Assembly (NCBI GenBank): GCA_031841125.1
Contig: CM063108.1
Coordinates: 43,732,122 to 43,796,121 of the forward strand
Length of the DNA: 64,000 bases
Direction of reading: 5' to 3'
Source of the DNA: Acanthococcus lagerstroemiae
Lineage: Eukaryota; Arthropoda; Insecta; Hemiptera; Eriococcidae
The notes beneath the pieces are model-generated. The model was not told the origin of the DNA. It ran no database searches and saw nothing but the letters and a program-made list of their open reading frames with translations. Position numbers and translations under genes: made by a program. Below are positions 2,398-58,604 of this stretch, one piece after another (position 1 is the first letter of the stretch; the number at the start of each line of letters is the position of its first letter).

Positions 2398-3211
2398 TGT
2401 TACGCCGAATACATCAAATTGCCGATTACATCAAATCGGCAACATTTGCCGAATTTGTAAAATCGGCAGGTTCTGCTGATTTTATGAAATAAACAATACA
2501 TTTTTACCGAATTTATAAAATCGGCAGATATATTATCTCGAGCGAGCTAGAATTAATTGCTAGATAGGTATAGACTTATTATAATTAAACTACGAGTACT
2601 GGATTCTAATTGTATGGAAAAAGAATTCGCACGCGGTTAAATGAACTAAAAATTTAAAAGAAATAATTAGTCGTAATATTCAATTAAAAATAATACACTT
2701 AAAGTAAAAAAATTAACATTTATTATTATTTTCACATGTCCGCACAGCTTCCACCTCTTTTTCACAGGTCCATTTATCTTGATCCATAACTCAAAATCAC
2801 AGTTATAAGAAATAATAACTTCACTGGCACTGTTTGCAAACAAGTACTGAAGAGCATTTTTGACACGTACAGATGAAGTTTATGTCTCACTTTATCAGTT
2901 AAGACGGTATGATTTAACAAGTCAATGGCATTATTCGAATCACGAATAGAACTCGTCTTCATTTTATCTTATCATAAATTTTGCTTTTTGTAAACACGTG
3001 AAAATTCTGACCTCATCCGTCGGGTACACTCATCAGCAACAATCACTTACTACCGATTTTGTAAAATCGGCAGACACTCGCCTATTTTATAAAAATTCTG
3101 CTGATTTTATCAATTCGGCAACAACATTGCTCGTGCGTTACTGATTTTATAAAATCAACAAAATATCTGCCGATTTTATGAAATCGGCAATTTGATGAAT
3201 TCGGCGTAACA
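2398..3211. mobile_element. MITE with TGTTACGCCGAAT termini
   Basis: The ends are inverted repeats: TGTTACGCCGAATACATC at the left and the complement of TGTTACGCCGAATTCATC at the right. Many internal copies of a TGCCGATTT-type motif in both orientations lie next to the ends (AAATCGGCA and the reverse). TACC flanks both sides and may be a 4-bp target duplication. There is no coding potential; the superfamily is not identified. Confidence 0.7.
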
Positions 3212-3229
3212 TACCTACCTATTCCTTAG

Positions 3230-3600
3230 TATTTCGATTAGTTAAGTTGCGTCTCTCCACTTTCCTCTCTCCTGTGCTAATATTTTCATTTCCAAGAAGG
3301 ATTCACGGTTTATAACCTTCATTATCTGCACTTTGTAGCTCATTTTGTGCCTTCCTTTCCAATTCTTTTGCTCAAACATTCCCTCTGACAGTGATAACAA
3401 TATCCCTGGATGTCTTATATTAGGACATATGTATCATTTTAACTCTTTTCTCTGTGTAATTACGTAAATTCAAAATTTCTCTTTCCCTTCCTATTCGCCT
3501 AAATATTTCCTCATCGAGGATCTTTTCGATTAGTTTTCCTATAAATAAGTTGAACAGTATCAGTGACAAACAGCAACTTCGTCTTACTTCTTTTTGAATT
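3230..3600 (-). pseudogene. LINE reverse transcriptase remnant
   Basis: On the minus strand a stretch reads LSLILFNLFIGKLIEKIL, preceded by KKEVRRSC. This resembles the RGVRQGC-LSP-LFN-YI segment of RTE/CR1-type RTs. The rest is degenerate and contains stops. The call rests on one motif region only. Confidence 0.45.
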
Positions 3601-5329
3601 TTCGCTTCCTATCCATTTTCGTTTTGCGTCTCTATTGTCCAGGTCTCACATTCGTAAATTACTAACTTCAAATATACGTTCGGAAAAATCTCATTTCAAT
3701 CGATTTTCCTTCATGCATAACGTTGAAAATCGAAGTAAACAATCTGGAAAAAAAAACAACTAGTAGGTACTCTTTTTTCTGTTCCTTTTTTTTTCAGCTT
3801 AGAACAAGTATTTAATTTTACTTCTCTTTTGAAAATAATGCAAATTGCGAATGCGATGTTTCATATCGCCATTTCCCATCGTCCAGAACTAGTTTGTAAG
3901 AAGAACATGATCTGGGCTAGGAAAAATAATATGTTTTGGCTTTCTTTTTTTATTGCGCCATAGTGGGTTATATTATTAGATACTGGACAAATAAGAAAAT
4001 TTCGAGTACACTGAGCTGAGCATATTTTTCAAAAATCGGAATATTTTGATTCTCTGAGCATAAAATTATTTTAGGATAGTTTAGTGAAATTTTCAGCATA
4101 TTAGGGAATATTTTATTGAAATTCACGATTTTGAAGAATATTTGCTGATTTTTTTCACTCTAAATGATCAACACTATCAAATATTGATGATAATAATAAT
4201 AATAATAATAAAATCGTTGCAGCCTTTGTGCTTACATGTTCTTATCATTACATTGTTCTCGCACTTAATTACTTATTTCTATCTCTTTTTCAGGGTTGGC
4301 TCAAGATTCTTATAAGAATCTTGGGGTTGGCTACTGGTAGCCGAGCCTATTGCAATCACTTTTTTTCTTCATCTTCTTCATCTTCTCTAGTTGTCGCGGA
4401 CTCTGCGAGAGGGCGCAATGTAACAGTTCAGTTCAGTAGCGCGTCATTTCAGATGCGTTTTTTTCGGCCTTGTTTTCTGTTCCAGTATTTTTAGTTTCCG
4501 CACAAGTCACCAAAAGCGCTGTGCGTAATTTTTAGGATCGGCTACTAGCGGGCTACTAGTAGCTAACGTTGTAGGGTGTCAGCGTTGTTACATTTTATAT
4601 TTTGGATTTTACTTTACGACGGAATTATTTCCTCAAAGAGGTAAAGCTTGTCTATGCAATGAGGAGCGATATGCGAGAATTGTCAGCTACAAGTAGAGTT
4701 CTAGTGTTCAGTATTCGTGTTTAGTATTATCCTTCAAGCATACAGTAATATGGTCAAAAATGTATGTTCATAGCCAGTTCAACTAGTAGCGTAGTAGCGA
4801 GAAGCGAACGGGTATTTATTGATGTATCATGTAAAGACGTTATAAGTAAATCAGTATGTTGAAGTGAACATTGTTTGTAGTTTGTACCGATATCGTTGTA
4901 ACCTATAAACTTATAAGCTGATAACATTATTTAGACGAATCAGTCATGCGAACTACAGAGAACAGAGAATGTAAGCGTGAATATTACATTTTGTACATTG
5001 TTTTCATTTGGTTAGTAATGGATACTTGCTGATCATTTTTGATGTTATTAACGCGACACAGTCAAACTGTCAATTGTCAGCATTAGTGTTCTGTTTGATT
5101 ACTGCGTAGAACACATTAAATTGAAAAATGAATTCTAAACGCAATAAACGGAATAATATGGAAAAGAGTGTAATTATTATCAAGCGAACAGAGAATCTGC
5201 TAGCATGAATATTACGTTGTTTTCATTCCCTCAGAAGTGGATAATTGTTGGCTATAATCATTTGATGATTTTAGGGTCGGCTGGGAGTAGTGTTGGTGTT
5301 TTATCTAGTGTTTGTGACCAAAATAACTT
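3601..5329. other. No gene recognised
   Basis: AT-rich sequence with short microsatellites (AAT repeats near 4190-4212, TCTTCA near 4366-4386). A fold-back of about 18 nt around CAAGATTC-TTATAA-GAATCTTG lies near 4303-4324, next to CAGGGTTGGC, which could be a hAT-type terminus. No reading frame with a recognisable domain was found. Confidence 0.35.
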
Positions 5330-20200: not shown

Positions 20201-23200
20201 AAAGGTCATTTACCTTCGTGAAATACAGTGCTGTTATGTCGTACTTACCGGACCTGTATACTGTAATAGTATATTACACATTAAGAGTCAAAAGTGAGTG
20301 TTTACATAGCGAGGGAAAGTTTTCAAACAAGCGTAGCGAGTGAGCAATTCCCGAGTCATGTAAACTCACTTTTGGCTCTTGTTGTGTAAGATATTTTTCA
20401 TACTACTTGATCAGAAGCGGACATGTTTTTCGCTGGCATGGTCTGTATTTATTTATTTATTTATTTATTTAAATTATGGAGAGGTGATTTTTGTGTCCGT
20501 AATTAATTCAAAAATTTAATTTGCTCAGTTAATTACTACAAAGTACAGTATCGCAGTCTTGTCTTCAGTTTGTTCAGGTGCACAAACAGCATACGCAGGT
20601 AGTGGCCAGCGAAAACGTAACAACGGTTAACAACAAACGGTAACAGCTGTACTACATTGTGAATATTTAAATGCGTTCTTAAGTCGCTATTTTGTAATTC
20701 GCTCTGGCCGAGTGGTTAGAGATGATTGCTACATTTCAGTCCAATGTTTCAATGAACGCAGGTTCGATTCCCTAGTACAAAATTACTGGCCAGCAATTTT
20801 TTCATGTAGAAACGCTTTACATTGAGAGTTGTTAGCTTTAAATGCAGGTTTCGTGAGCACTCGATGCATGAATGATAGCTGCTTCTTGTCGTCCGTAAAC
20901 ACCAACGTAAACATTGCCTTTCTGATCAAGTAGTGTAAAAAATATCTTCCACAACAAGAGCCAAAAGTGAATTTACATGACTCGGGAACTGGCCACTCGC
21001 TACGCTCGTTCGCACTCACTTTTGACTCTTGGTGTGTAATATACTTTATCCACTCGTCAAAAATACGTTTTATTTATGTTCTGATGGCTAATAAAACGCA
21101 CGCGAATGACTCGAATTGAGGATATAACATTATCATACTGTTTTTCTATGTATATCTGTTCCGTGGAACACTCAGCCATATAGAAAATTAGGAAAAAAAT
21201 GAAATTCCCTAAAGTAGAGAAAAATCGACATATCACATGCATGCTGCTACGCTGTTCAACATAGACAAAAATTCGTTTACACTTACATTCAGCAGTTTGT
21301 TCACGCTGATTAGGCTGCATTTGAAATAGGTCCATTTCGCCCCCCCCCCCACAAGTTGGATATACAAGGTGAAACTAGTGTCATTATTTTGTGCCTATTT
21401 TGTGCAATTTTGTACACCCTGGATGTCCAAAAACACTGCACAAAATAGGCACAACATTTTGACACTATAGTTTCACCTTGGATGTCCAACTTCTCGGGGG
21501 AGGAGGGAGGCTGGCAAAATGGACCTTTTGGAAATATTCGCCTTAGTTTGTATTCGACTGAAAGAATTAAAAATCTTTAAATACATAATGTTTATTTCGT
21601 CGGAAATTTCTGCGCAAATTGTTGCACTTGTTAACCAGGGTAGAAGTCGTCGTTCTGTTGATTTACAGTATGATCTGGCGCATGGTATACTGTGGATCAC
21701 ATTTACCGACAATACCTAGCGACAAGATCATTCAGCCATAGACCGCAATCGGGCCGTCTAAGAGCTACAGATGTCCGAGAGGATAGAAATATTGCGAGAA
21801 TAGCGATGGGAGATCCTTATTTAACATCGAATAGAATAGCTGGGGAAGTAAATTTCTCTCGTAACACGTCTATGAATTCTCGAACAGTCCGTCGCCGACT
21901 TCTCGAATATGGTTCATGTAACAGTGAACTGATACAAGTCCCGATACTCACTATGGAACACCGACGACGACGCTTTGTCTCTTGGTCACAATCACGTGCA
22001 TTGACGGGAAGGTGATTAGAGGTGGATTTTCTTCACGGATGAGTCCAGATTTTCTCCCGCAGAACCGGATGGATATGTACGAGTATGTAGATGTCCTGGT
22101 CAACGATATGCTCAACGTATATTTACACGGAGGTCGAATTTCTTTGGTAGTTCCGTTATGGTCTGGGGTCGTATTTCGGGTGATGCTAGGACGGATCTCC
22201 ATTCTTGTGACTCCAGAACTGTGAACGCTTCAGGGTATATTGAGGACATTCTCCTAAATTAAGTTGTGCCTTATATGCCATTTGTGGGTGCGGGCTCCTT
22301 GTTCATGCAAGGTAACGCCCGACCCCATGTAGCACAACAGAGGCTCAAATTCTTGGAAGAAGTCGAAATTGCATACAACTTCAATGGCCAGCTTGCAGCC
22401 TGGACTTGAACCTAATTTAACACGTCTGGGACAAACTGGGTAGACGCATACGAGCTCGTAATCCCCCTTAAATTCCCTTAATTTATTGATAATTGCCCTG
22501 CGAGAAGAATGGGAAGCGATACCACAGGAGGAGATCCGTGCGTTAATTGATAGCATGCCGAGCCAGTTACGAACCGTGATTCGGGCTCGTGGTGGCAACG
22601 CGTGTTACTAGGTTCAACTTCTGGTTAGTTTTATTAACATTTAGTAAACCATTGCGGTCTTCTATCTGTTTTTTACAAATACAAAATATTATGAGGTGCT
22701 TTACTACTTTTTTTTTTTTTGGTCTGTCTGTATGGAGTAGGTATGTCTGAATGCCTCCACAGCACCCGCGTTAAAGGAGAAATGTTCTAGAAATATTATA
22801 TCTGAATTTCTGAATTTCCAGTCATTTGCTGATTCCCTTTTGCTATCTAATAGAAGGAGAATCATGATTTTTCTAGGGGGTGGGCAAAGACTTTTGTCTA
22901 GCAGTGTACGTATGCACACGAACAATATTATTACTACATGACTGTACATGAGAAGGAAATTACAGTGCCTGTTACACAATTATTAGTGTTTTCTTAGCCT
23001 TCGCCGGACGCCCTCTCTTCCTGTTCTGTCCGAGATGGATACTTTTGGCCTCCGGCGGTACGCTCACTTCACATCTTTCTGTCTCATTTGAATCCCTAGT
23101 GCATGTTTAGATGTCTACACCTGTACACTGTCCATTTTTTAACATAGAATGTGTACATTTAACGCCTGAACGTGATACTGCTGTGGTCCAAAGCTCCATT

Positions 23201-26200
23201 CGCCAAAACTCAAAATCGTCGAAATCAGACCATTTACCAGAACGTTTCTGATACATTTTCAAAATTTTCGGCGTAAATTGCCGCGTTCATCCTGGACAAG
23301 GTGGTGAAATACTGCGTGCAGCTGTCTTCGTCGTGACGTAACATGAAGGAATTTGAGAGTGCCCAGTGGTAGGCATTTGTCCACTTTTTAATGGGGATGG
23401 TTGAAGTCTCCACAAACAGTACACAATTGCACGATGACTGGTCCCGGCGTCGTCCAGCGGCTCCCTCATACCAATTTGAATACTTCCGGAACCATACTTC
23501 ATCAAAGTATTCAACGAGATCGAGAACACAACTTTCCTTCTTCTTCCGCCATTTCTTCCAGAAGAGTGTGCTGGCTTTGGTAAATATTGCTTCATCTAGA
23601 GATATCTGAAAGCTGGCCAGCAACTTCACCTTTTGTGAACGGCCGCTTCCCCTCTTAAAATGATTTCATGCATGATCACACATCAACTACCTACTTCCCG
23701 CTGTATTTCTTGGGGAAACCTGTCAATGTCTCGTGCGTGAGTAGTCTCAGGTAATCTCTTTTAAAACTCGTTCATTTACTTTATTTTCTCGCGCAAACCT
23801 TTTATTTTCTTGTGCAGTTTAATATTTCCCATTAGGAATTAGTAAACAATAAGTAAGGGGACCCTTACTCCGCTTTCCCGAAATATTAATGGAATTTTGT
23901 ACTTATTTTTGTAAACGATAATCCGAACTATTCTAGGAGAGAGTATAAGTAATTTTTATTTTTATTTTGAAACATACTCTGCAGTTTAGAAGTCGGAGTA
24001 GGTGAAACTCGATGTTGCAATGGGTTCTGTATTCTCTCTGACAGTAACTTTCTGTAGCAGTATAGGTACGTAAAGTAAGCTTTACTTTATAAGTTAAAAT
24101 TATCACTTATTAATTATGAAATATTGACACTGGAATCTCAAATAAAATTGTATCGAAACTCCGATGAGATAATTTTTGAAGTCAGCTTTTAAACAGAATT
24201 CTTATTCTAATATTTTCCCGATTTTCCTGGACGAGTCAAGTTAGCCACCTCTCAAGTGTAAGATTTTGAGTACATTAGTTGAAATTTGAGCCGAACTGTA
24301 TCTATAAGGTGTAGAGTATTTCAAAACTGGGATCTCTTTTTTTGAAATAAGCAAACATTTCGAGGAGTTCAATTTTTCAAATGATGTCAATTTGATGAAC
24401 CCTTCATCCCAAATAAAATGTTATTTATTTTTATTTGCTGAAGTCACAACCGAGTCAGATTTGAGCTCAACTGATCTCTAAAGCAACTATTTCGATTTCT
24501 TAAATTGTTAAAATCGAGTCAATTGAGTCCTATATTTCTAGCTCACATATGCTGAGTTCCTTAAGTGTGCGCGATCAGAGTATCCATACACAGAACATTC
24601 ACATAAATTAAAATCAAAGAAAAAAAATGATATTTTTCCTTAAAATGTGCAAACCCAAATTTGCTAAGGACTATGTAATGGTCCAATGATTGTACATCAC
24701 TTATGTTTAAATAATGGGTAATTTGAAATCTTTCAATATCTTGTGACTGATCATATTTAATATTCAGAAATTCTTCGAATACATTTTCCCCTTATACATT
24801 GCTTCGTTTCTGTCCATACACTGCCGCACACAAGTCTTTATCCACCCCCAAAAAAATCATGATTCTCCTTCTATTAGTAAAAGGGAACCAGAGCAGATGA
24901 CTGTAAATTCAGATATAATATTTCTAAAACACTTCTCTTTTCACACATGTGCTGTGGAGACATTCATACATACTCGATATAGAAAAAAAAAAAAAAAAAG
25001 TCCCTGATATAGCAGAAAATCGCATATTTCATACTTGTAAGAAACAGATGTAAGACGACAAAGGTTTACTAATTATGTTGATAAAAGCAACCAGAAGTTG
25101 CCGCCACGGGCCCAAATCATGGCTCGTAATCGGCTCGGCATGCTATCAATAAATTAACGTACGGATCTCTCCTGTGTTATCGCTTTGCATTCTTCTCGCA
25201 GGGTAGTTCTCAATGACGTGAGGGAATTTATGGAGGATCGTCTACCCAGTCTGTCCCAAACGTGTTCAATTAAGTTCAAGTCTGGGCTGCAAGCTGGTCA
25301 TTCAAGTTGTATGCAATTTCGACTTCTTCCAAGAATTTGAGCCTCTGTTGTGCTACATGGGGTCGGGCGTTACCTTGCATGAACAAGGAGCCCGCACCCA
25401 CAAATGGCATATAAGGCACGACTTAATTTAGGAGAATGTCCTCAATATACACTGAAGCGTTCACGGTTTTGGAGTCACAAGAATGGAAATCCGTCCTAGT
25501 ACCACGCGAAATACCGCATCCCAGACCATATATAATGGAACCACAGTAGAAATTCGACCTACATGTAAACGTACGTTGAGCATATCGTTGACCAGGGCGT
25601 CTCCATTTGCATATTATGTCCATCTGGTCCTGCGGGAGAAAATCTGGACTCATCCGTGAAGGAAACTCACCTCCAATCCCTTTCTTGTCTTTGCACGTGA
25701 TTGCGAGCAAAAGACAAGCGTAGTCGTCGGTGTTCCATGGTGAGTATCGGGACTTGTCCCGGTTCACAGTTACATAAATCCACAGACATCTCACTAAGAT
25801 GTCTGTGCATAAATCATGTTCACAAAGTCGGCGACGGATTGTTCGAGACTTCACAGGCGTGTTACGAGAGAAATTCGCTTACCCTTCTATTCGATGTTAA
25901 ATACGGATCTCGCATCGTTGTTCTCACAATGTCTCTATCCTCTCGGACATCTGTAGCTTTTGGACGGCCAGATCGCCGTCTGTGGACGAATGATCCTCTG
26001 TCGCAACGTATTGTCGGTAAATGTGATTCACGGTATCATACGCCAAATTATACTGTAGAGCGATAGGACGACGACTTCTATCTCGTTGAGTGCAACAATT
26101 TGCGCAGAAATTTCCGGCGAAATAGACATACGAGTACAAGGTGCGGCAGAAGTCAGGTCCCCGATTTGTATAACGTTGCGCAGTGCGCTTGCGCTGGAAT

Positions 26201-36888: not shown

Positions 36889-37338
36889 ACGTTTATACTA
36901 CTACACTAGATACCTAACTTCCTATTCTGCCGTAGTAAAATAAAGCGTATCCAGAATTTGTTCAAATGTTGCATAAGCGTTTGCCAGTCACCGGTATAGT
37001 CATTTTCCCCATTTAAAATACATGGTGAATTTCGCGTGGAGGTGTCGTCGTTCAAATTTAAAAAAAAAAATTGAAGTGTAACATATTGTTTTTTTTAATA
37101 TTTTTCTGCTCCCAAGATATAAATACATGGTCTGTCAAATTTTCAGATCGTTTTACCCAGGCAAAATGTAATAAGCGCGATTTAAAAATGACCAATTTCC
37201 CATTTAAAATGCATTGGAGCCGATTTTCTATACCGGTGACGCTAGCAGATGGGATACTAAAACGCGGGGTGGGGGAGAAGGGTTTATACTATAGTAGCAG
37301 GCTGAAGTTAGGTATCTAGTGTATAGTAGCATAAACGT
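36889..37338. mobile_element. 450-bp MITE, copy 1 of a head-to-head pair
   Basis: The termini are ACGTTTATACTACTACACTA (left) and its imperfect complement ending GTAGCATAAACGT (right), each continuing into GATACCTAACTT or its complement. The interior matches copy 2 (37376 onward) in reverse orientation over nearly its full length. About 37 bp separates the copies. Confidence 0.85.
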
Positions 37339-37375
37339 TTTTGACAACCACTTACAGCAGGGCTTCCGAGCAAAG

Positions 37376-38316
37376 ACGTTTATACTACTACACTAGATAC
37401 CTAACTTCAGCCTGCTACTAGTATAAACCCTTCTCACCCACCCCGCGTTTTAGTATCCCATCTGCTAGCATAACCGGTATAGAAAATCGGCTCCAATGCA
37501 TTTTAAATGGGAAATTGGTCATTTTTAAATCGCGCTTATTACATTTTGCCTGGGTAAAACGATCTGAAATTTTGACAGACCATGTATAATTTATATCTTG
37601 GGAGCAGGAAAATATAAAAAAAACACAATATGTTACACTTCAATTTTTTTTATTTTATTTTTTTATTTGAACGACACCTCCACGCGAAATTCACTATGTA
37701 TTTTAAATGGGGAAAATGACTATACTGGTGACTGGCAAACGCTTATGCAACATTCGAACAAATTCTGGATACGCTTTATTTTACTACGGCAGAATAGGAA
37801 GTTAGGTATATCTCAAAGTCATATAGATACACCAAGTTAGACGACTAGCGCGTTTCCGCGTTCTGCCATCATGCCAGCGCGCTGCTATCGCTGAACTCCT
37901 TTGTTTGCATTGCGCTTATATGGACATTTTTACGTTTTTGCGGATTAGCTCAAAAACTATCAATTTTGATGAAAAATTGGAAAGAGCTGAATTTGTTCAC
38001 CTTGGAATTTTCCATCGAATGCGAGTAAATTCGAAATTTTTATGGGTAAAATTTTGAAACTGATCTTACCTGATAGAAAATAACAGGTAGAATAAATTTT
38101 GTTCTTTTCACTTTTTCATAAAACTCGATCGTTATTGAGATAAACGCAAAACCTTGTTAGGGCTCCCAACGTTTACATTGATTTCACGGCAGTCGAACGC
38201 TGCCAGCGCTGCTATCGGGATAAATTATCGTAACATACGAAGTTTAACATTGGTTAAATGGAGAGTCGAACGACTTGGTGTATCTATATGACTTTGGTAT
38301 ATCTAGTGTAGTAGGT
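37376..38316. mobile_element. MITE copy 2, inverted, split by a nested element
   Basis: Inverse copy of 36889-37338, running from ACGTTTATACTACTACACTA at 37376 to the GTTAGGTATA region at 37801. It resumes at 38304 with TAGTGTAGTA and then fades. The gap is a 485-bp nested element (37813-38297). Confidence 0.8.
37813..38297. mobile_element. 485-bp TIR element nested in MITE copy 2
   Basis: The termini are inverted: CAAAGTCATATAGATACACC at the left and its complement at the right. The direct repeat TATATC flanks it at 37807-37812 and 38298-38303. There is no coding potential. Confidence 0.82.
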
Positions 38317-47736: not shown

Positions 47737-48597
47737 TAGTGATGTGTAGTTGTTGATAGTTTCGAAACTATCAATTGTTTTGATAGTAACTTAAAATACT
47801 ATCAATACTATCAAAAAGTGGTTTGATAGTTCTTTACATACTATCAATACTATCAAAGTTTATTTGATAGTTTTAACATTAATTATTAAAAATTTTAGGA
47901 TCGATGAATAATTCATTTATTATCAGTTCTAACATGATTTAATCACTATTTTGTTATTAATTATTATTAATTAGAAACTAGATTGCGAATTTTTTCGAAT
48001 GAAATAATAAACACACTTAATCATAATCCGACAAATAACTTATTGATAAGAAATAACAATAACTTTTGATGGTTTCAAGTTTCAGTAGGTGTAGGTATTC
48101 AGTTTTCAGTAATATACATTACACAAGCATAAGCCATAACATTAACTACCAAATCCAGAACCAGAAGAGTTTAATTAATAATCAAATCATGGAATGAAAA
48201 ATGAAACTGTCAAATACACATTGAGGATCGAGAAACGACTGGGAGAACAAACCTAAATCTAACGAGCTTATGGTCTCTTTCCCAGCTTCCAAGATTCATC
48301 TGAATGGATGAAATCACAGTTCACAAAATCAGTAAATACTAAATAGTAAATACTAAATATTTAGTATTATTTACTATTTAGGTAACTATAATTAAATAAA
48401 TTTAAAACAGTGTTGACAAATGACAAATTCATAATTATTCATTTTGATGATTTGATAGTTTTTATTAATTTGATAGTTTTTAAGAACTATCAATAGTGTT
48501 GATAGTCAATGAAGTGACTATCGATAGTTTGATAGTACTAAATTTACTAAAAACTATCAATACTATCAAAAATACTATCAATTACTACACATCACTA
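47737..48597. mobile_element. 861-bp hAT-like MITE abutting the palindrome
   Basis: The termini TAGTGATGTGTAG and CTACACATCACTA are inverted repeats. Both subterminal regions are packed with ACTATCAA / TTGATAGT motifs in both orientations, typical of hAT-type non-autonomous elements. There is no transposase. It lies between a TAGTAGACT copy (47729-47737) and the left palindrome terminus, so it apparently inserted into the extreme end of the palindromic element. Confidence 0.75.
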
Positions 48598-48603
48598 TAA
48601 GTA

Positions 48604-48612
48604 GGTATAAAA
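48604..48612 (+). promoter_or_regulatory. TATA-like motif at the left terminus
   Basis: TATAAAAGG lies within 17 bp of the palindrome's left end, pointing inward. The mirror copy is at the right end (about 58581-58589, minus strand). A promoter role is inferred from the motif only. Another TATATA box lies near 50278, closer to the polymerase gene. Confidence 0.4.
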
Positions 48613-48843
48613 GGCCAGTCCTGCAACACACAACAGACTATGCTAAGCGCCATAGTCATTGACCTCTCGAGGCGCGTGGTTAGATTCGCGCGCTTTTGAA
48701 TCATATGCTCGATGATGACATGTTTCGCATGTGAATATTTCTAATCACGTGTTCGCGAATTAAAGGCGGGAAGCATTAAGTGGGAGATATTTTCGTCGTA
48801 TATTTTTAATTGAATATTTAAAATTTGATTGATTAACCTACCT

Positions 48844-48902
48844 GAGACTGGAGAGTCCCTCGTTAGACGCGTTAGCGTCAACGATGGACCTCTCTATGTC
48901 TC
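48844..48902. repeat. 59-nt hairpin, left arm copy 1
   Basis: GAGAC, GAGAGTCC and CGTTAGACGC on the left pair with GCGTCAACG, GGACCTCTC and GTCTC on the right, around a GTTA loop. Four copies exist in the element: here, 48977-49035, 58156-58214 and 58289-58347. Confidence 0.85.
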
Positions 48903-48976
48903 TCAATTAAATTTAGAACAGTATCAACCTATCAATTCTGAATTCATTTTCGAATTTGATAGTCATCTACCAAGCT

Positions 48977-49035
48977 GAGACAAGAGAGTCCCTCGTTAGA
49001 CGCGGTAGCGTCAACGATGGACCTCTCTGTGTCTC
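48977..49035. repeat. 59-nt hairpin, left arm copy 2
   Basis: Same stem as copy 1, with loop GGTA in place of GTTA and changes confined to the outer spacer (CAAGAGAG against CTGGAGAG, CTGTGTCTC against CTATGTCTC). Placed 133 bp from copy 1. The stem is kept although bases around it vary. Confidence 0.85.
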
Positions 49036-49059
49036 GCAATTAAATTTGAGTATATCCAA

Positions 49060-49063
<4 letters not shown>

Positions 49064-49107
<44 letters not shown>
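49064..49107. repeat. (TTA)n microsatellite, left arm, about 15 units
   Basis: The mirror tract in the right arm (58057-58131) has about 25 units. The length difference is one of the markers that the arms have diverged. Confidence 0.9.
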
Positions 49108-49109
<2 letters not shown>

Positions 49110-50256
49110 TTTGCAAATCTCCGAATCGAATCGAAAAATATCAGATACATGGACATGTATGCTATTTTCACTCGACGCAGTCGACGGACGAGTCAATTTC
49201 ACATTTTTACCGTTAAAAGCAGCGTTAGATTCGATAAACTACCCCATCTTGAACATGTATGCTATTTTCATACGAAGCAGTCAACAGGCGAAACAATTTT
49301 CGCTTGTGCTGTTAAAAGATCCGTTATATACCTAAATTCCATTCTCATCGGCAACTTTTTACATGAAACAATTTTGTACAGGGGAAAGTATTCAACAATC
49401 ATCTAGCCCTTGCGGTAAAAACAATTAGTTTAAACCTTTCTTCGAAAGAGCAGCTGATACTCTGGCATGCGAGAATCTATTCATAGTGTCTTTAGACTTT
49501 TTCGCAAAAGTAGACTCGACCTGCAACAATTAGCGAGCGTGACACTTGACGCTTCGAGTGTATGCGGTTCCAAGCCCAAGGCAATTAGTATCAATCGACT
49601 TCTATTGTGCATATTGTATCCCTATTTCCCCCGCGGATACAGGTGTCAGCCACTGGTTTACTTGCTGTTAATAAACATGTTTTCTGCTACCTGCAGTAGC
49701 GATTCCGAGTGTAAAGCGATTAGCATGGCATTTGCTTAAGCCTTTTTCTAATGTCTTCTCGACTTTCTCTCTGAAGGAAGGATAGCTAGATCCTTCTATC
49801 GGTTTTGAGGTAAATTAGCGAGTCTGGACTACGCTTAACACATACTTGCGACCTTCGTCGAACGGTGAAATGTCAATCAAATATAAAGTCCCATTATCAG
49901 GAAACTTGTCCAGCTAGATGATACTTAGTCCACAGGTGAAAATATCGTTTTCGCGACAAGTTTCTCAGAGGGAGGAGAATAATTTTCCCACCAATCACAT
50001 GGCTTTTTGAACAATTTTTCCATCCAATAGCAAGGCGTTAACATAATTAGGAAATATGAACAACCCTCCGAGTTATGAATATAACATTCAAATTTCCGAG
50101 TGTTCAAATCACTCTACAATTTACTGTCTACACGATCAGAGCTCATCTTTTTGCTTTCGTTGACATCGTCGTCGTCGCTATTGTTGTTCTTCTTCAGCAA
50201 ATTCAAGTCGTTGACTTTTTTGATTTTTTGCATCGCATCAATCTACGTCTAATCCG
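49108..50256. other. Left arm leader without a recognised gene
   Basis: A pair of direct repeats starts ACATGTATGCTATTTTCA (about 49153 and 49255) with related sequence after each. Short open frames (for example 49467-49739) are mirrored in the right arm, but since the arms are nearly identical this is no evidence of selection. No domain was recognised. Confidence 0.4.
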
Positions 50257-51244
50257 AGTAAGTACCTAACCAATCTTTATATATGTATTCATCGCCTCGA
50301 TTTTTTAATTTCGTCGACATTAACGTAATTTCCGTTGATTTCTATCTTTTTGCACTGTCTATCCTCGAACGAATTAACGTAATTTCCATCAATTTTCTCG
50401 TTTATATGATCGCTTACGTGAATATTTATCGAAAATTTATTTTTCTGTCTAATAGAAAAATGGCTTTATCAAAATTCCCGTCGAATTTCACCGTCTCTTC
50501 CGACAACGAGCAGGCTGTAGCTGGACCCAGCTGGCGTGAGGTCAATTCAGACAGAGTCGCCAACAGGGTGAGATATTTTTGTCAAATTTCTGTACTAGAA
50601 CAAGGAAAATTGCGAATATATTCTAACACTTGAATTAATTAACCCTCAGGTCAATCGAAAACGTGCTGCCCCATCGGCCTCATCCGCTAGTGAATTCGTT
50701 CGACAGTTGAACGCCCATCAATCCCATCAGGCTCACAGAAACGAGGAAGAAGGAACGATCCTCTGCTCAACGTGCCAAACTCAGCATAAAAAAGCATTCT
50801 GGTATCGCCATATTATCTCCCAGACTCATAAGGATGCTGTTCACCGTGCTAGCTTACAAGATGCGAGCGCAGCCAGGGGAATAATTCTTCACCAGACATC
50901 GAACATGTTGGTATATGATATTTTATTTAAGCCCGACGAAACTATTATTAATTCCGAGGAAAATAGAGACGAAGATGTAAATTTAAATTTTAGCCGGCCC
51001 GAGCTGGACTCAATCGATCAGGCTTCGTTGGAGGAAACTAATCAAGCTGCTAAAGATACAATCGAAATTTTTTTTGCTTACCCGATCTGAGAATTTTTCA
51101 GAAAAAGTGCTCAAATGTGACATGATAATTTCAGCACTTTTTTGTACAATTTGTGACAATTAATTCCACCAATCAGAGACGAGAACGGGTTTTTGTCAGT
51201 CTGCTGCCACCAGTGTCACAACTGGGCAGTTTTTAATACCATTT

Positions 51245-51328
51245 GTGACAGAAATGTGCTCATTTGTGACAGAAATGTGCTCATTTGTGACAGAAATGTG
51301 CTCATTTGTGACAGAAATGTGCTCATTT
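51245..51328. repeat. Four tandem copies of a 21-bp unit
   Basis: The unit GTGACAGAAATGTGCTCATT(T) repeats four times exactly. A diverged copy lies near 51396. The GTGACA motif in it is the same as the element's subterminal motif. Confidence 0.92.
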
Positions 51329-52193
51329 GTGTCAATTAAAAAAATGTCACGTTTAAGCAGTTTTTTGCTTACTGGGCAGTTTTTAATGCCACTTGTGACA
51401 GAAATGTACTCATTTGTGCCATTTTAATAAGTGTCACATTTACGCAGTTTTTTGCTCGCCTCTGCAGGCGCTGGTTATAGCCCCCGCTGCACCCTCAATT
51501 GTGAGCATCGCATAGGTATATTACATATATTATAGAAATATATTTCTGCCATAAGAATAAATAAATACACGATACCGCAAAGCAAGTGTGGTAGGAGCGC
51601 GATAACAATGTAAATAATGTAGTCAATATTTACAAAAAGCACGTAGAAAATGTATATTTTACATACATACAACAAAATAATAATTATAGATAGGTACTAA
51701 AAATAAAGTACAGGACTAAAAACAACCCCTGACTAAGTTGTTCAACTTAATTGGATGCTATATTCAGCGTCAAGGAACCAACCAACATTTGTAAACAAAA
51801 TGAGTTATTAGTATATATGTTTGGAAAGAGCGTAAAAAGTAGAATTTTTCAAAATTGGGCTGCCGATTCAAAAATGTGTACTCACATTGAAAAATGCTTA
51901 TCAGTAAACGCTATGTCATATAGTTTCTACCAAAATATTGAGTTCTTATTTATATGCACTTTTGGTTTTGGTTGATGTTGGAGCGCTCCTTCTCAGAATA
52001 CAAACTGCCAGCAATTCCAAAATGCACGGATATTATTCTCTCAGCGCAGTGCAATCACAAAATACAGGTATCATGCAGCTATGTTGATTCCAGCTTATCT
52101 ATCAGGTGAACAAGCGTAGATACTTATAAAGGATGTTATTCTACAGAAAAATTCCGCCAGCAAAGATCATCCGGAGGAAGATTATTATATACT

Positions 52194-52403
52194 TATCCTG
52201 TGTATTTTTTCCTCTTTCAGCCTGTTCTGTTATTTGGAGAGCTTCATCGTCTATATACGATCGAGTATATTTTGAAATCACTGGTGAACAGCGTGAGGAA
52301 CATACACGCGCTGTTTACCAGTGATTTTGAAATATATACTCGTATATATACTAAGAAGCTCCAAATAACAGAACAGACTGAAAGAGGAAAAATACACAGG
52401 ATA
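52194..52403. mobile_element. 210-bp fold-back nested inside the inserted element
   Basis: TATCCTGTGTATTTTT at the left pairs with AAAAATACACAGGATA at the right, and pairing continues inward through CTGTTCTGTTATTTGGAG and TTTGAAATCACTGGT(G/A)AACAGCG to a small loop near 52303. Almost the whole length is self-complementary. Confidence 0.85.
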
Positions 52404-54309
52404 ATAATTATAATTATAGGTAACTTACTCGTTTTCATTGTAGCCATGTATTTCATTAGCACACGTGGTGGTCAAGGAGCACAGCAACACACGAACGAAA
52501 TATATTTAAATATAAAATCATAAATTATAAGTAGTCGTCAAATTTCAAATTAAAACACAGAAATGAGAGCACAATCACAATCCCAGTTAGTACAAGACAA
52601 TATATGTTCAAAGTTGAATTTAAGTATAACGATTAATTATTTAATTTCTAGATTCTCTCAAATTGCCACAAATAAGCAGTTTTCTGCTTAAATATGACAA
52701 CATAAACTGTCACACATAAGCATATTTGTGACACTTTAATGTCACGGAGGCCGTGTGACATATTTCCAGTGATAAAAGGGGCGGATCTAAATATTTACCA
52801 CACTTTTACCACAAATTTGCGAAATTTACAGACTTGAGCACTTTTTTTTGCCACAGATAGTGTCACAAGCTTAAAAACGCAGATCGGGTACTTCTACGAT
52901 GGTATTATATTTAGATTGGAGGAAGGGCTCACCATTCACGGTTCTATAAAGGTCCACTGCTCGCTCGGCATACAAATGCAAAAGTTTACTACCGATGGGC
53001 AGTTAATTTATGAAAATATCTCGTTAAGAACCTCAGCGGAGGAAATATTAATCAGTACCGACTTAAGAGAATGGCTTACTCTATTAATTGTTGAAATGTT
53101 GATAAAATATGAAGAGAATTCTCATCGAGGCTCGAATTGGACGCTTTCTAAGGTTAACGATTTCGAGATACATGTTAGCAAATTTAGTCCCCTGCGCGCA
53201 ACATCGTATATCCCACTTCCTTCCGAGATAGTACGAAAAAAAGCCGTTATCAATGTCGATAATACTACAGATGAATTTTGCTTCAAATACGCCATTTTAG
53301 GCAAAGCAGTGCATGCGAAAACCCCTAAAGTCATAAATCCAAATCGTGTTAGCAATTATAAGAGAGCCGAATATGAAAATATGTACAATTTCGACAGTAT
53401 CAGATTTCCAACTCCCATATCTGACATTATCATTTTTGAAAAAAATAATTCAGCCTCAGTTAATGTGTATGGATTAAGTAAGGAGGGTGCAAAAGAGACA
53501 TTTGTCTACCCTATCCGAATTTCTAAGAATTATGTTCGAAATAATCACTTTAATCTACTCTATATCCAGGATGAGGCTTCCTTAGGCGCCGAGGATAAGC
53601 CCATCAACGGACATTTTTGCTATATTACAAATTTAAGTCGATTGGTGAGTGCACAAAATAATAATAATGGTCACGCTCTCCACATCTGCCACAGATGTTT
53701 GATGAGTTTTAAGAGCGAATCAAGGCTAGTTGAGCATGAGAAATTCTGCATGAATCACGAGCCCATTCGTGTGGAAATGCCCAACGATGAAAAGAGAATT
53801 CAAACATTTAAAAATCACAAGTTTCAACAACGAATCCCTTATGTAATCTATGCAGATTTCGAGTGCGCACTCGTCCCATTTTCAACAGCTACCCGTAACG
53901 TGAATATCGAAGAGGCTTTTACCGATAAAACACATATCCATCTACCTACTTCATATTGTTACTACATTGTATCTTGCAACGAGGCTGACCCTACTGAATA
54001 TAAGCCTCAGTTGTACAGGGGTCCCAATGCAGTTCAGCATTTCTGGAAGAGTATTCGCACAGAACTTATGAAAATTGCCGAGATTTATAAACATATTGTT
54101 CCTATAAACATCACCCCTGAAGACGAAATACGAATAAATGAGGTGGTTAAATGTCACATCTGTGGGGCTTTGCCTCGAACCTCCCCCCACGATTTTGTAC
54201 TCGATCACGATCATTTAACTGGTCGACCCCGCGGATTTGCATGTAACAGTTGTAATTTAGCCTATCAACTGCCGGCGTTTGTCCCCATAGTTCTTCACAA
54301 TGGAAGTTC

Positions 54310-56704
54310 TTACGATTTTAAAATGCTAATTCGCGACATATACAGCGAAATTTCTTCTAATGATGATGAGGTAAATGATAATACATCAGTCAATAGGAGC
54401 AGGCCTGCTCGTAGGAGAGGTAGGGCACCAAAAAGAGCTCGTTGTAATTTTATTTTAGACGAGGCTAGCGTTGATGGTGATGATGATAATTCTGATGATG
54501 ATGATGACGAATCTAAAATAAAATTACAACGAGCTCTTTTTGGTGCCCTACCTCTCCTACGAGCAGGCCTGCTCCTATTGACTGATGTATTATCATTTAC
54601 CTCATCATCATTAGAAGAAATTTCGCTGTATATGTCGCGAATTAGCATTTTAAAATCGTAAGAACTTCCATTGTGAAGAACTATGGGGACAAACGCCGGC
54701 AGTTGATAGGCTAAATTACAACTGTTACATGCAAATCCGCGGGGTCGACCAGTTAAATGATCGTGATCGAGTACAAAATCGTGGGGGGAGGTTCGAGGCA
54801 AAGCCCCACAGATGTGACATTTAACCACCTCATTTATTCGTATTTCGTCTTCAGGGGTGATGTTTATAGGAACAATATGTTTATAAATCTCGGCAATTTT
54901 CATAAGTTCTGTGCGAATACTCTTCCAGAAATGCTGAACTGCATTGGGACCCCTGTACAACTGAGGCTTATATTCAGTAGGGTCAGCCTCGTTGCAAGAT
55001 ACAATGTAGTAACAATATGAAGTAGGTAGATGGATATGTGTTTTATCGGTAAAAGCCTCTTCGATATTCACGTTACAGGTAGCTGTTGAAAATGGGACGA
55101 GTGCGCACTCGAAATCTGCATAGATTACATAAGGGATTCGTTGTTGAAACTTGTGATTTTTAAATGTTTGAATTCTCTTTTCATCGTTGGGCATTTCCAC
55201 ACGAATGGGCTCGTGATTCATGCAGAATTTCTCATGCTCAACTAGCCTTGATTCGCTCTTAAAACTCATCAAACATCTGTGGCAGATGTGGAGAGCGTGA
55301 CCATTATTATTATTTTGTGCACTCACCAATCGACTTAAATTTGTAATACAGCAAAAATGTCCGTTGATGGGCTTATCCTCGGCGCCTAAGGAAGCCTCAT
55401 CCTGGATATAGAGTAGATTAAAGTGATTATTTCGAACATAATTCTTAGAAATTCGGATAGGGTAGACAAATGTCTCTTTTGCACCCTCCTTACTTAATCC
55501 ATACACATTAACTGAGGCTGAATTATTTTTTTCAAAAATGATAATGTCAGATATGGGAGTTGGAAATCTGATACTGTCGAAATTGTACATATTTTCATAT
55601 TCGGCTCTCTTATAATTGCTAACACGATTTGGATTTATGACTTTAGGGGTTTTCGCATGCACTGCTTTGCCTAAAATGGCGTATTTGAAGCAAAATTCAT
55701 CTGTAGTATTATCGACATTGATAACGGCTTTTTTTCGTACTATCTCGGAAGGAAGTGGGATATACGATGTTGCGCGCAGGGGACTAAATTTGCTAACATG
55801 TATCTCGAAATCGTTAACCTTAGAAAGCGTCCAATTCGAGCCTCGATGAGAATTCTCTTCATATTTTATCAACATTTCAACAATTAATAGAGTAAGCCAT
55901 TCTCTTAAGTCGGTACCGATTAATATTTCCTCCGCTGAGGTTCTTAACGAGATATTTTCATAAATTAACTGCCCATCGGTAGTAAACTTTTGCATTTGTA
56001 TGCCGAGCGAGCAGTGGACCTTTATAGAACCGTGAATGGTGAGCCCTTCCTCCAATCTAAATATAATACCATCGTAGAAGTAAGCAAAAAAAATTTCGAT
56101 TGTATCTTTAGCAGCTTGATTAGTTTCCTCCAACGAAGCCTGATCGATTGAGTCCAGCTCGGGCCGGCTAAAATTTAAATTTACATCTTCGTCTCTATTT
56201 TCCTCGGAATTAATAATAGTTTCGTCGGGCTTAAATAAAATATCATATACCAACATGTTCGATGTCTGGTGAAGAATTATTCCCCTGGCTGCGCTCGCAT
56301 CTTGCAAGCTAGCACGGTGAACAGCATCCTTATGAATCTGGGAGATAATATGGCGATACCAGAATGCTTTTTTATGCTGAGTTTGGCACGTTGAGCAGAG
56401 GATCGTTCCTTCTTCCTCGTTTCTGTGAGCCTGATGGGATTGATGGGCGTTCAACTGTCGAACGAATTCACTATTAGCGGATGAGGCCGATGGGGCAGCA
56501 CGTTTTCGATTGACCTGAGGGTTAATTAATTCAAGTGTTAGAATATATTCGCAATTTTCCTTGTTCTAGTACAGAAATTTGACAAAAATATCTCACCCTG
56601 TTGGCGACTCTGTCTGAATTGACCTCACGCCAGCTGGGTCCAGCTACAGCCTGCTCGTTGTCGGAAGAGACGGTGAAATTCGACGGGAATTTTGATAAAG
56701 CCAT
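54310..56704 (-). CDS. Family-B DNA polymerase N-terminal part, right-arm copy, open but truncated
   Basis: Exons (minus strand) 56704-56597 and 56514 onward, split by the 82-bp intron 56596-56515. About 700 residues come from the arm itself, followed by loop and antisense codons to a stop at 54310 (770 in all). An N-terminal C2H2-like finger (CSTCQTQHKKAFWYRHIISQ, then HKDAVH) and a second CHRC...HEKFC finger precede Exo I (YVIYADFECAL). An HNH/endonuclease-VII-like insert follows (CHICG, DHDHLTG, CNSCN), then Exo II (HNGSSYDFKMLI). This order is known from polymerases of Maverick/Polinton elements and related DNA viruses. The palm (SLYPS, DTDS) lies beyond the truncation, so it cannot polymerise. 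It differs from the left copy at several residues and by one extra Asn codon. Confidence 0.85.
54460..54511. other. 52-bp central loop of the palindrome
   Basis: Non-palindromic junction between the arms. In the plus-strand polymerase frame it encodes an Asp-rich run from GAT-GAT codons, which may be native polymerase sequence. The GAT microsatellite is a plausible place for the strand switch that made the palindrome. Frames reading on past it (to 54661 on plus, 54310 on minus) are antisense of the opposite arm. Confidence 0.85.
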
Positions 56705-58054
56705 TTTTCTATTAGACAGAAAAATAAATTTTCGATAAATATTCACGTAAGCGATCATATAAACGAGAAAATTGATGGAAATTACGTTAATTCGTTCGAG
56801 GATAGACAGTGCAAAAAGATAGAAATCAACGGAAATTACGTTAATGTCGACGAAATTAAAAAATCGAGGCGATGAATACATATATAAAGATTGGTTAGGT
56901 ACTTACTCGGATTAGACGTAGATTGATGCGATGCAAAAAATCAAAAAAGTCAACGACTTGAATTTTCTGAAGAAGAACAACAATAGCGACGACGACGATG
57001 TCAACGAAAGCAAAAAGATGAGCTCTGATCGTGTAGACAGTAAATTGTAGAGTGATTTGAACACTCGGAAATTTGAATGTTATATTCATAACTCGGAGGG
57101 TTGTTCATATTTCCTAATTATGTTAACGCCTTGCTATTGGATGGAAAAATTGTTCAAAAAGCCATGTGATTGGTGGGAAAATTATTCTCCTCCCTCTGAG
57201 AAACTTGTCGCGAAAACGATATTTTCACCTGTGGACTAAGTATCATCTAGCTGGACAAGTTTCCTGATAATGGGACTTTATATTTGATTGACATTTCACC
57301 GTTCGACGAAGGTCGCAAGTATGTGTTAAGCGTAGTCCAGACTCGCTAATTTACCTCAAAACCGATAGAAGGATCTAGCTATCCTTCCTTCAGAGAGAAA
57401 GTCGAGAAGACATTAGAAAAAGGCTTAAGCAAATGCCATGCTAATCGCTTTACACTCGGAATCGCTACTGCAGGTAGCAGAAAACATGTTTATTAACAGC
57501 AAGTAAACCAGTGGCTGACACCTGTATCCGCGGGGGAAATAGGGATACAATATGCACAATAGAAGTCGATTGATACTAATTGCCCTGGGCTTGGAACCGC
57601 ATACACTCGAAGCGTCAAGTGTCACGCTCGCTAATTGTTGCAGGTCGAGTCTACTTTTGCGAAAAAGTCTAAAGACACTATGAATAGATTCTCGCATGCC
57701 AGAGTATCAGCTGCTCTTTCGAAGAAAGGTTTAAACTAATTGTTTTTACCGCAAGGGCTAGATGATTGTTGAATACTTTCCCCTGTACAAAATTGTTTCA
57801 TGTAAAAAGTTGCCGATGAGAATGGAATTTAGGTATATAACGGATCTTTTAACAGCACAAGCGAAAATTGTTTCGCCTGTTGACTGCTTCGTATGAAAAT
57901 AGCATACATGTTCAAGATGGGGTAGTTTATCGAATCTAACGCTGCTTTTAACGGTAAAAATGTGAAATTGACTCGTCCGTCGACTGCGTCGAGTGAAAAT
58001 AGCATACATGTCCATGTATCTGATATTTTTCGATTCGATTCGGAGATTTGCAAA

Positions 58055-58056
<2 letters not shown>

Positions 58057-58131
<75 letters not shown>
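58057..58131. repeat. (AAT)n microsatellite, right arm, about 25 units
   Basis: Mirror of the tract at 49064-49107, ten units longer. Asn-repeat frames crossing it are artefacts. Confidence 0.9.
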
Positions 58132-58132
<1 letters not shown>

Positions 58133-58155
58133 TGGATATACTCACATTTAATTGC

Positions 58156-58214
58156 GAGACACAGAGAGGTCCATCGTTGACGCTACCGCGTCTAACGAGG
58201 GACTCTCTTGTCTC
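58156..58214. repeat. 59-nt hairpin, right arm (mirror of left copy 2)
   Basis: Reverse complement of 48977-49035, keeping the full stem and the GGTA/TACC loop. Confidence 0.85.
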
Positions 58215-58288
58215 AGCTTGGTAGATGACTATCAAATTCGAAAATGAATTCAGAATTGATAGGTTGATACTGTTCTAAATTTAATTGG

Positions 58289-58347
58289 GAGACATAGAGA
58301 GGTCCATCGTTGACGCTAACGCGTCTAACGAGGGACTCTCCAGTCTC
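58289..58347. repeat. 59-nt hairpin, right arm (mirror of left copy 1)
   Basis: Reverse complement of 48844-48902, with the GTTA/TAAC loop. Confidence 0.85.
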
Positions 58348-58604
58348 AGGTAGGTTAATCAATCAAATTTTAAACATTCAATTAAAAATATACGATGAAA
58401 ATATCTCCCACTTAATGCTTCCCGCCTTTAATTCGCGAACACGTGATTAGAAATATTCACATGCGAAACATGTCATCATCGAGCATATGATTCAAAAGCG
58501 CGCGAATCTAACCACGCGCCTCGAGAGGTCAATGACTATGGCGCTTAGCATAGTCTGTTGTGTGTTGCAGGACTGGCCTTTTATACCTACTACTATAGTA
58601 GACT

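Follow-up and report, generated by a model that had tools for sequence, protein, structure and literature searches.

A palindromic, target-duplicated Polinton in Acanthococcus lagerstroemiae, probably formed by snap-back of a free replicating molecule

Polintons (also known as Mavericks) have terminal inverted repeats that start with 5'-AG, and a 6-bp target-site duplication is the family value. Linear replicons are known to give rise to snap-back derivatives, and a hairpin plasmid was reportedly described by Kikuchi et al. (1985, EMBO J 4:1881) among the linear protein-primed replicons of yeast, while Foldback (FB) elements are characterised by internally repetitive inverted repeats. According to PMC4028283, which names capsid proteins in its title, the Polinton gene set includes PolB, integrase, ATPase and cysteine protease, and PMC6431247 agrees with this; PMC8097293 states that no viral particles, and PMC7805220 that no extracellular form, of these elements have been observed. 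Here we describe a palindrome, P1, at positions 48600-58591 of a 64,000-nt stretch of the A. lagerstroemiae genome (hereafter the window; C3:43732122-43796121 in a 658-Mb assembly with chromosome-size contigs), which we consider on balance probable to be a defective inverted-dimer Polinton that arose by fold-back of a free replicating molecule and was then inserted by an integrase. P1 and two further complete palindromes of the same genome, P2 and P3, display the traits of snap-back derivatives, namely near-identical arms that double one terminus. As in the hairpin and inverted-dimer derivatives of linear protein-primed plasmids, one end of a linear replicon is doubled into an inverted repeat; the yeast hairpin plasmids are free, however, whereas P1-P3 are chromosomal insertions with target duplications. 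FB elements and Galileo are similar in consisting largely of inverted repeats, but the arms of P1 are made of unique Polinton-end sequence instead of the internally repetitive terminal inverted repeats that mark the FB group.

The palindrome was confirmed to be real. Its reverse-complementary arms occupy 48600-54459 (left, plus strand, insertion included) and 54512-58591 (right, minus strand) and enclose a 52-nt GAT-rich loop at 54460-54511, in agreement with a first-pass annotation made from the sequence alone, which had also placed a palindrome here but set its limits, at 48598 and 58595, 2-4 nt away from those of the actual element. The left arm measures 4,050 nt without a 1,808-bp insertion and one TA, the right arm 4,080 nt. 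Over the 4,050 aligned columns there are 12 mismatches, six in the 1,125 columns of the terminal repeat and six in the 2,925 columns inside, and perfect stretches of 1,631 and 1,571 nt rule out a chance similarity. The arms differ in length by 27 bp in an (ATT)n array (49062-49107 in the left arm, 15.3 units; read as (TAA)n at 58057-58132 in the right arm, 25.3 units) and by a 3-bp TAA indel; the third gap in the alignment corresponds to three bases remaining at the insertion site after the insertion was cut out. Besides this array, one two-copy repeat of about 95 bp (87%) was the only arm repeat found. The element starts with AGTAGGTATAAAAGG at 48600, ends at 58591 and is flanked on both sides by the 6-bp duplication ACTATA (48594-48599, where the first four bases double as the end of a high-copy repeat, and 58592-58597), the chance of one 6-bp match being 3.4e-4 at the base composition of the window. 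The insertion (51081-52888) is missing from the right arm, has its own inverted ends (CCCGATCTG / CAGATCGGG) and is flanked by a duplicated TA (51079-51080 and 52889-52890); within it lie a 21-bp array, CATTTGTGACAGAAATGTGCT, and, at 52181-52417, a hairpin.

The whole genome was searched with the right arm, which gave at least 87 matches (40 of 362 candidates scored). The outer 1.15 kb of the query (positions 2928-4080) was present at both ends of the relatives, which have AG..CT ends, terminal repeats of about 1.15 kb and a 6-bp duplication (CATACA, TTCGAT, TGCGAT, TCCACT (by-eye reading) and AGCAAA); no clear target duplication was seen at the ends of the copies at C1:29.44, C8:1.69 and C6:55.6 Mb. 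Judged by how far the matches at the two ends of full-length relatives extend, the terminal repeats of P1 span 48600-49724 (plus strand) and 57440-58591 (minus strand), with approximate inner edges. In the element at C6:43229812-43248077, the two terminal repeats (1,156 bp) are 100% identical, the duplication is AGCAAA and polB is found at a single end. A second relative, C5:64710577-64729533, codes for PolB (1,363 aa, with YADFE and YTDTDS motifs), a double-jelly-roll capsid protein (PF21738, 2.8e-57), an rve and Chromo integrase (C5:64721250-64722200; rve 4.2e-14, Chromo 1.1e-5), a phospholipase-A2-like protein and, with a weak match that fails the curated cut-off (Pox_A32 7.4e-4), an A32-like ATPase. 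Compared with the PolB of 'Ladona dragonfly adintovirus', that of this relative shows 44% identity, with 70% of the query covered. This relative, with ends matching those of P1, bears out the Polinton/Maverick identity suggested at first. P1 shares with this adintovirus-like family the AG..CT ends, the terminal inverted repeat of about 1.15 kb and the 6-bp duplication, but it retains only the polB-side part, doubled and inverted.

In the four long relatives for which both ends were fetched (C1:29.44, C2:53.39, C5:64.71 and C6:43.23 Mb), polB lies at one end only. Since the relatives have terminal repeats of only about 1.15 kb and polB at one end, the arms of P1 extend far beyond a normal terminal repeat. 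A parent naturally bearing polB at both ends, which would have refuted the first-pass reading, was not found among these four; the apparent exceptions, namely the scored matches at which polB occupies both ends, are P2 and P3. Simple internal deletion was also considered, and copies of this kind exist (C6:21413402-21420389 and C3:18013755-18015697), but their inverted parts stop within the terminal repeat. A search with the terminal repeat returned many inverted end pairs, as expected for ordinary elements (40 of 319 candidates scored). Polinton capsid genes additionally occur in direct head-to-tail arrays, with six copies 3.5-3.9 kb apart at C6:37039622-37059588 and four at C54:28487-68615.

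Each arm of P1 codes for the N-terminal part of PolB, as had been read from the sequence: at 50599-54459 on the plus strand, where the insertion splits it into the open pieces 50599-51087 and 52838-54658, and at 54512-56505 on the minus strand, where the match, which includes part of the loop, corresponds to residues 5-666 of the 1,363-aa PolB of the relative (82%). An Endonuclease_7 domain is found in both arms (54140-54262, plus strand; 54709-54831, minus strand), and the translation holds the motifs YADFE and N..YD, which we take to be exonuclease motifs. In the relatives the YTDTDS motif lies downstream of the P1 break point, and polB of P1 ends before this palm motif. The PolB proteins of this genome matched Endonuclease_7 and did not match Pfam DNA_pol_B_2 (PF03175); their protein-database homologs carry PF03175, those with names coming mostly from insects and other arthropods and some from Mytilus. 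A search of PDB gave no match and one of IMG/VR two PolB contigs. The PolB of the relatives, with its YADFE and YTDTDS motifs and its PF03175-bearing homologs, may be of the protein-primed type; P1 keeps the N-terminal part only. P1 has no complete polB and no capsid or integrase match (126 of 356 and 125 of 1,389 candidates scored, respectively); lacking the complete gene set, it is not itself an autonomous Polinton.

The genome was also searched for palindromes with other loop points, as had been suggested at the outset, and two complete palindromes (P2 and P3) and two further centres (P4 and P5) were found. Inverted pairs were drawn from scored candidates only (40 of 362, 34 of 659, 126 of 356, 125 of 1,389 and 40 of 65 in the different searches), so that palindromes may be missed; P1-P3 are counted as fully bounded palindromes, P4 and P5 as centres. 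P2 (C3:29990016-30006960) has arms of 8,443 nt with three mismatches and a few one-base indels, a 59-nt loop and the duplication CGCACG; one arm contains a complete polB frame of 1,403 aa, and the centre lies inside a frame holding the capsid domain, pieces of which are recognised in P2 itself (3.6e-92). Its closest relative among those fetched is the C6:43229812-43248077 element (99.2% over 6,984 nt). P3 (C10:1193318-1209547) has arms of 7,986 and 7,987 nt, a 257-nt loop and the duplication ACCGGA; off-centre, its arms differ by one mismatch and two one-base indels, and the last five junction bases hold two mismatches and a gap. The polB DNA of P3 is about 65% identical to that of P2, and the terminal repeat of about 1.15 kb was measured in relatives of P1 and P2. 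Arm lengths thus amount to 4.1 (P1), 8.4 (P2) and 8.0 kb (P3), and a target duplication is present in all three palindromes whose ends were read. For P4 (C1:8131582/8131596, at 8.13 Mb) perfect arms of 183 nt around a 13-nt loop were seen in the 381 nt read, and for P5 (C1:46738819/46738826, at 46.74 Mb) perfect arms of 170 nt around a 6-nt loop in the 351 nt read; an inverted pair of capsid genes indicates longer arms at both. No integrase match was found inside P1, P2 or P3 among the 125 of 1,389 candidates scored. A small Polinton-ended copy at C6:55616358-55621141, in which inverted arms continue about 790 bp past the terminus into the flank and no target duplication was seen, looks like a chromosomal inverted duplication and was not counted as a palindrome.

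The tiny loops of P4 and P5 (13 and 6 nt), known from a reading of the centres only, resemble those of fold-back chimeric reads, which raises the question of an assembly or library artefact. For P1 such an artefact is unlikely because one arm alone carries the insertion, because the arms have private mutations and because element termini, flanked by a duplication, mark the limits of the palindrome: of the nine arm differences that can be compared with relatives, eight are private to one arm and one is mixed (three lack a comparison). P2 and P3 likewise end at element termini with target duplications, and we regard an artefactual origin as barely conceivable.

Relatives of the P5 centre (79-80%) form outward-facing inverted pairs whose members lie an almost constant 13.2-13.6 kb apart at eight loci (C8:30398919/30412073, C6:4614614/4628190, C3:64142904/64156238, C8:51528330/51541678, C6:10098026/10111603, C5:45082994/45096592, C1:82487258/82500605 and C2:47036489/47050062) and 17.3 and 19.8 kb apart at two more; they represent an element in many copies that carries one and the same gene piece at its two ends. 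Two inverted integrase pairs surround one listed capsid gene each (C3:46599311/46612046 with the capsid gene at 46606711, and C8:22104856/22116703 with the capsid gene at 22110179) and may be inverted dimers of the integrase end that have a long spacer.

The junctions of the palindromes proved informative. The first-pass annotation had located a strand switch inside polB, and at the P1 break point polB indeed runs straight through in all nine relatives read (two of which are the P2 arms). These relatives show TTTTAGA, a GAT-rich spacer of variable length and then AATCTATTGATATTG, and the window has TTTTAGA-[52]-TCTAAAATAAAA. The copy switch lies directly after TCTA (54512-54515, plus strand), which is complementary to TAGA (54456-54459, plus strand) across the loop, so that the two form a 4-bp inverted repeat with a 52-nt spacer; the plus strand of the loop carries the left arm onward as in the relatives, which begin to diverge just beyond TCTA. 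The P2 junction is an 8-bp repeat with a 59-nt spacer, TCGACTAG-[59]-CTAGTCGA in the three relatives read, and a straight-through match was obtained at 24 of 25 other places (21 at ≥98% and three at 74-75%; all 26 candidates scored), the 25th being P3, where the match stops at P3's own centre. At P3, the four loci compared (one of them P2) show an imperfect repeat of 11-12 bp with a 257-nt spacer, its sides being ATCCGAGGCAAA (ATTCGAGGCAAA in two) and TTTGCTCGGAT. The junction repeats were read directly in relatives for P1-P3 and deduced from match ranges for P4 (4 bp, CAAC/GTTG, 13-nt spacer; at 17 of 17 other places, two of them the P5 arms, the match spans arm, loop and four more bases) and for P5 (5 bp, AGATT/AATCT, 6-nt spacer; nine of nine places at ≥96%, with 40 of 53 candidates scored and additional places at 79-92% matching less far). 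Among random fold-back junctions, repeats of at least 4, 5 and 8 bp occurred in 2.1%, 0.7% and 0.02% of trials, respectively. If the 3' end of a strand primes by snapping back, relatives should carry a short interrupted inverted repeat at the junction, and they do so at all five centres. Gene conversion or stepwise growth of the terminal repeats of an ordinary element, until the arms met, would predict neither a loop between inverted repeats of this kind at five centres nor near-identical arms over 8 kb; in some copies inverted arms do extend beyond the family terminus (for example C8:1689576/1706913), but the junction evidence disfavours this route, and we consider it very improbable.

In our preferred reading, snap-back of a free molecule followed by integration, a full-length linear Polinton would have been copied from its polB-side end, and the growing or displaced strand, with the polB-side terminus as its 5' end, would have halted within polB about 4.1 kb in. 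The 3' end of this strand (...TCTA) may then have paired with the TAGA 52 nt upstream, as the junction suggests, and synthesis would have reversed towards the terminus; copying of the hairpin through its loop would have given a linear duplex with polB-side termini at both ends. As both ends are proper termini, the integrase of the element could have inserted this inverted dimer like an ordinary copy, which would account for the 6-bp ACTATA duplication. Afterwards the arms presumably acquired their mutations independently, the (ATT)n array changed in length and a 1.8-kb TA-target transposon entered the left arm. Protein priming, a free hairpin and the use of the element's integrase are proposed for P1 by analogy with linear protein-primed replicons. 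P2 and P3, both complete, indicate that this event took place on at least two further occasions, and it probably also did so at P4 and P5, where the centres were read; the presence of these palindromes in one genome suggests a recurrent replication error. In all three complete palindromes it is the polB end that is doubled, and inverted pairs were absent among 46 matches to an integrase-side query (24 of which covered >60% of the query; 40 of 65 candidates were scored).

Snap-back itself is common to this reading and to its main rival, in which the palindrome was formed in place, and that it preceded integration, instead of taking place during repair of an integrated copy, is not proven. For an in-place origin, a break in an integrated full-length Polinton would be followed by fold-back of the resected polB-side 3' end at a short inverted repeat; the arm would be copied up to the terminal repeat, and the new and old terminal repeats would recombine and thereby replace the rest of the element, leaving its ends and target duplication intact. 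For chromosomal DNA, models that invoke fold-back at short inverted repeats (origin-dependent inverted-repeat amplification, ODIRA, and related ones) have been put forward and tested in part (PMC4689423). Five of the six differences in the P1 terminal repeats are private to one arm among the compared relatives, a pattern allowed by both models. The in-place route, however, requires a coupled pair of events at every one of the three loci, and it gives no reason to expect a preference for the polB end, yet three complete palindromes double polB and none of the 46 integrase-side matches form a pair, with the caveat of small numbers and search bias. We regard it as possible but rather unlikely.

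Several observations weigh against formation from a free molecule. Arms that were identical at birth should have accumulated differences evenly, but mismatches are denser in the terminal repeats of P1 and P2 (8 of 2,281 versus 7 of about 10,209 columns, Fisher p = 0.0023; for P2, 2 of 1,156 versus 1 of 7,284, or 7,283 by recount). The excess has p = 0.007 without one site beside the ATT array, p = 0.11 for P1 alone and p = 0.05 for P2 alone, in a post hoc test of mismatches only that left out P3 (one mid-arm and two junction mismatches); a comparison of P2 with its sister element lacks such a bias (0.61% versus 0.57%). This excess favours the in-place route, in which the terminal repeats would be the older pair, and stays unexplained under the free-molecule reading. 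The polB-end preference is itself weak evidence, as P2 and P3 were found via polB and capsid, numbers are small, and integrase-end palindromes with arms below about 2.5 kb would escape the search. No second copy of P1, P2 or P3 was seen. A clean empty site for P1 could not be demonstrated because the left flank (48100-48597) is a high-copy interspersed repeat (matched nearly in full at no fewer than 39 other places; 40 of 171 candidates scored) that ends inside the left duplication, its end coinciding with it.

Elsewhere in the window, 36910-37809 is a near-palindrome of 0.9 kb (91% self-complementary), perhaps a fold-back miniature inverted-repeat transposable element, and 21588-22908 and 24817-26129 are 79% alike in inverted orientation, the first with a Tc3-like transposase helix-turn-helix.

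As described in PMC4689423, ODIRA resembles the process favoured for P1 in its junctions at short interrupted inverted repeats and in an extrachromosomal inverted dimer that integrates; it involves a chromosomal segment with an origin, a circular intermediate and integration by homology, whereas P1-P3 have element termini and a target duplication. In yeast DNA, the same source counts one 7-bp repeat spaced by <70 bp for every 240 bp, hence such sites are common. Among the papers listed in our literature searches, judged by title or start of abstract, none dealt with palindromic Polintons, and integrated, target-duplicated snap-back derivatives of Polintons would be new. With two copies of the polB-side terminus, it is thinkable that such palindromes use the polymerase and integrase of a helper; that they are self-propagating defective parasites, with some lineage multiplying in this way, appears to us quite unlikely, although the 13.2-13.6-kb inverted gene pairs (eight loci) and the integrase pairs (two loci) could be such lineages. 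The palindromes explain elements with polB at both ends, which might otherwise be mistaken for a new family. If formation from a free molecule is correct, they would preserve, as fossils in the chromosome, a replication intermediate that was free, linear and initiated at its end, and the replication mode of Polintons would become testable from genomes, since any long-read assembly allows counts of junction repeats, of the end preferred and of the divergence between arms.

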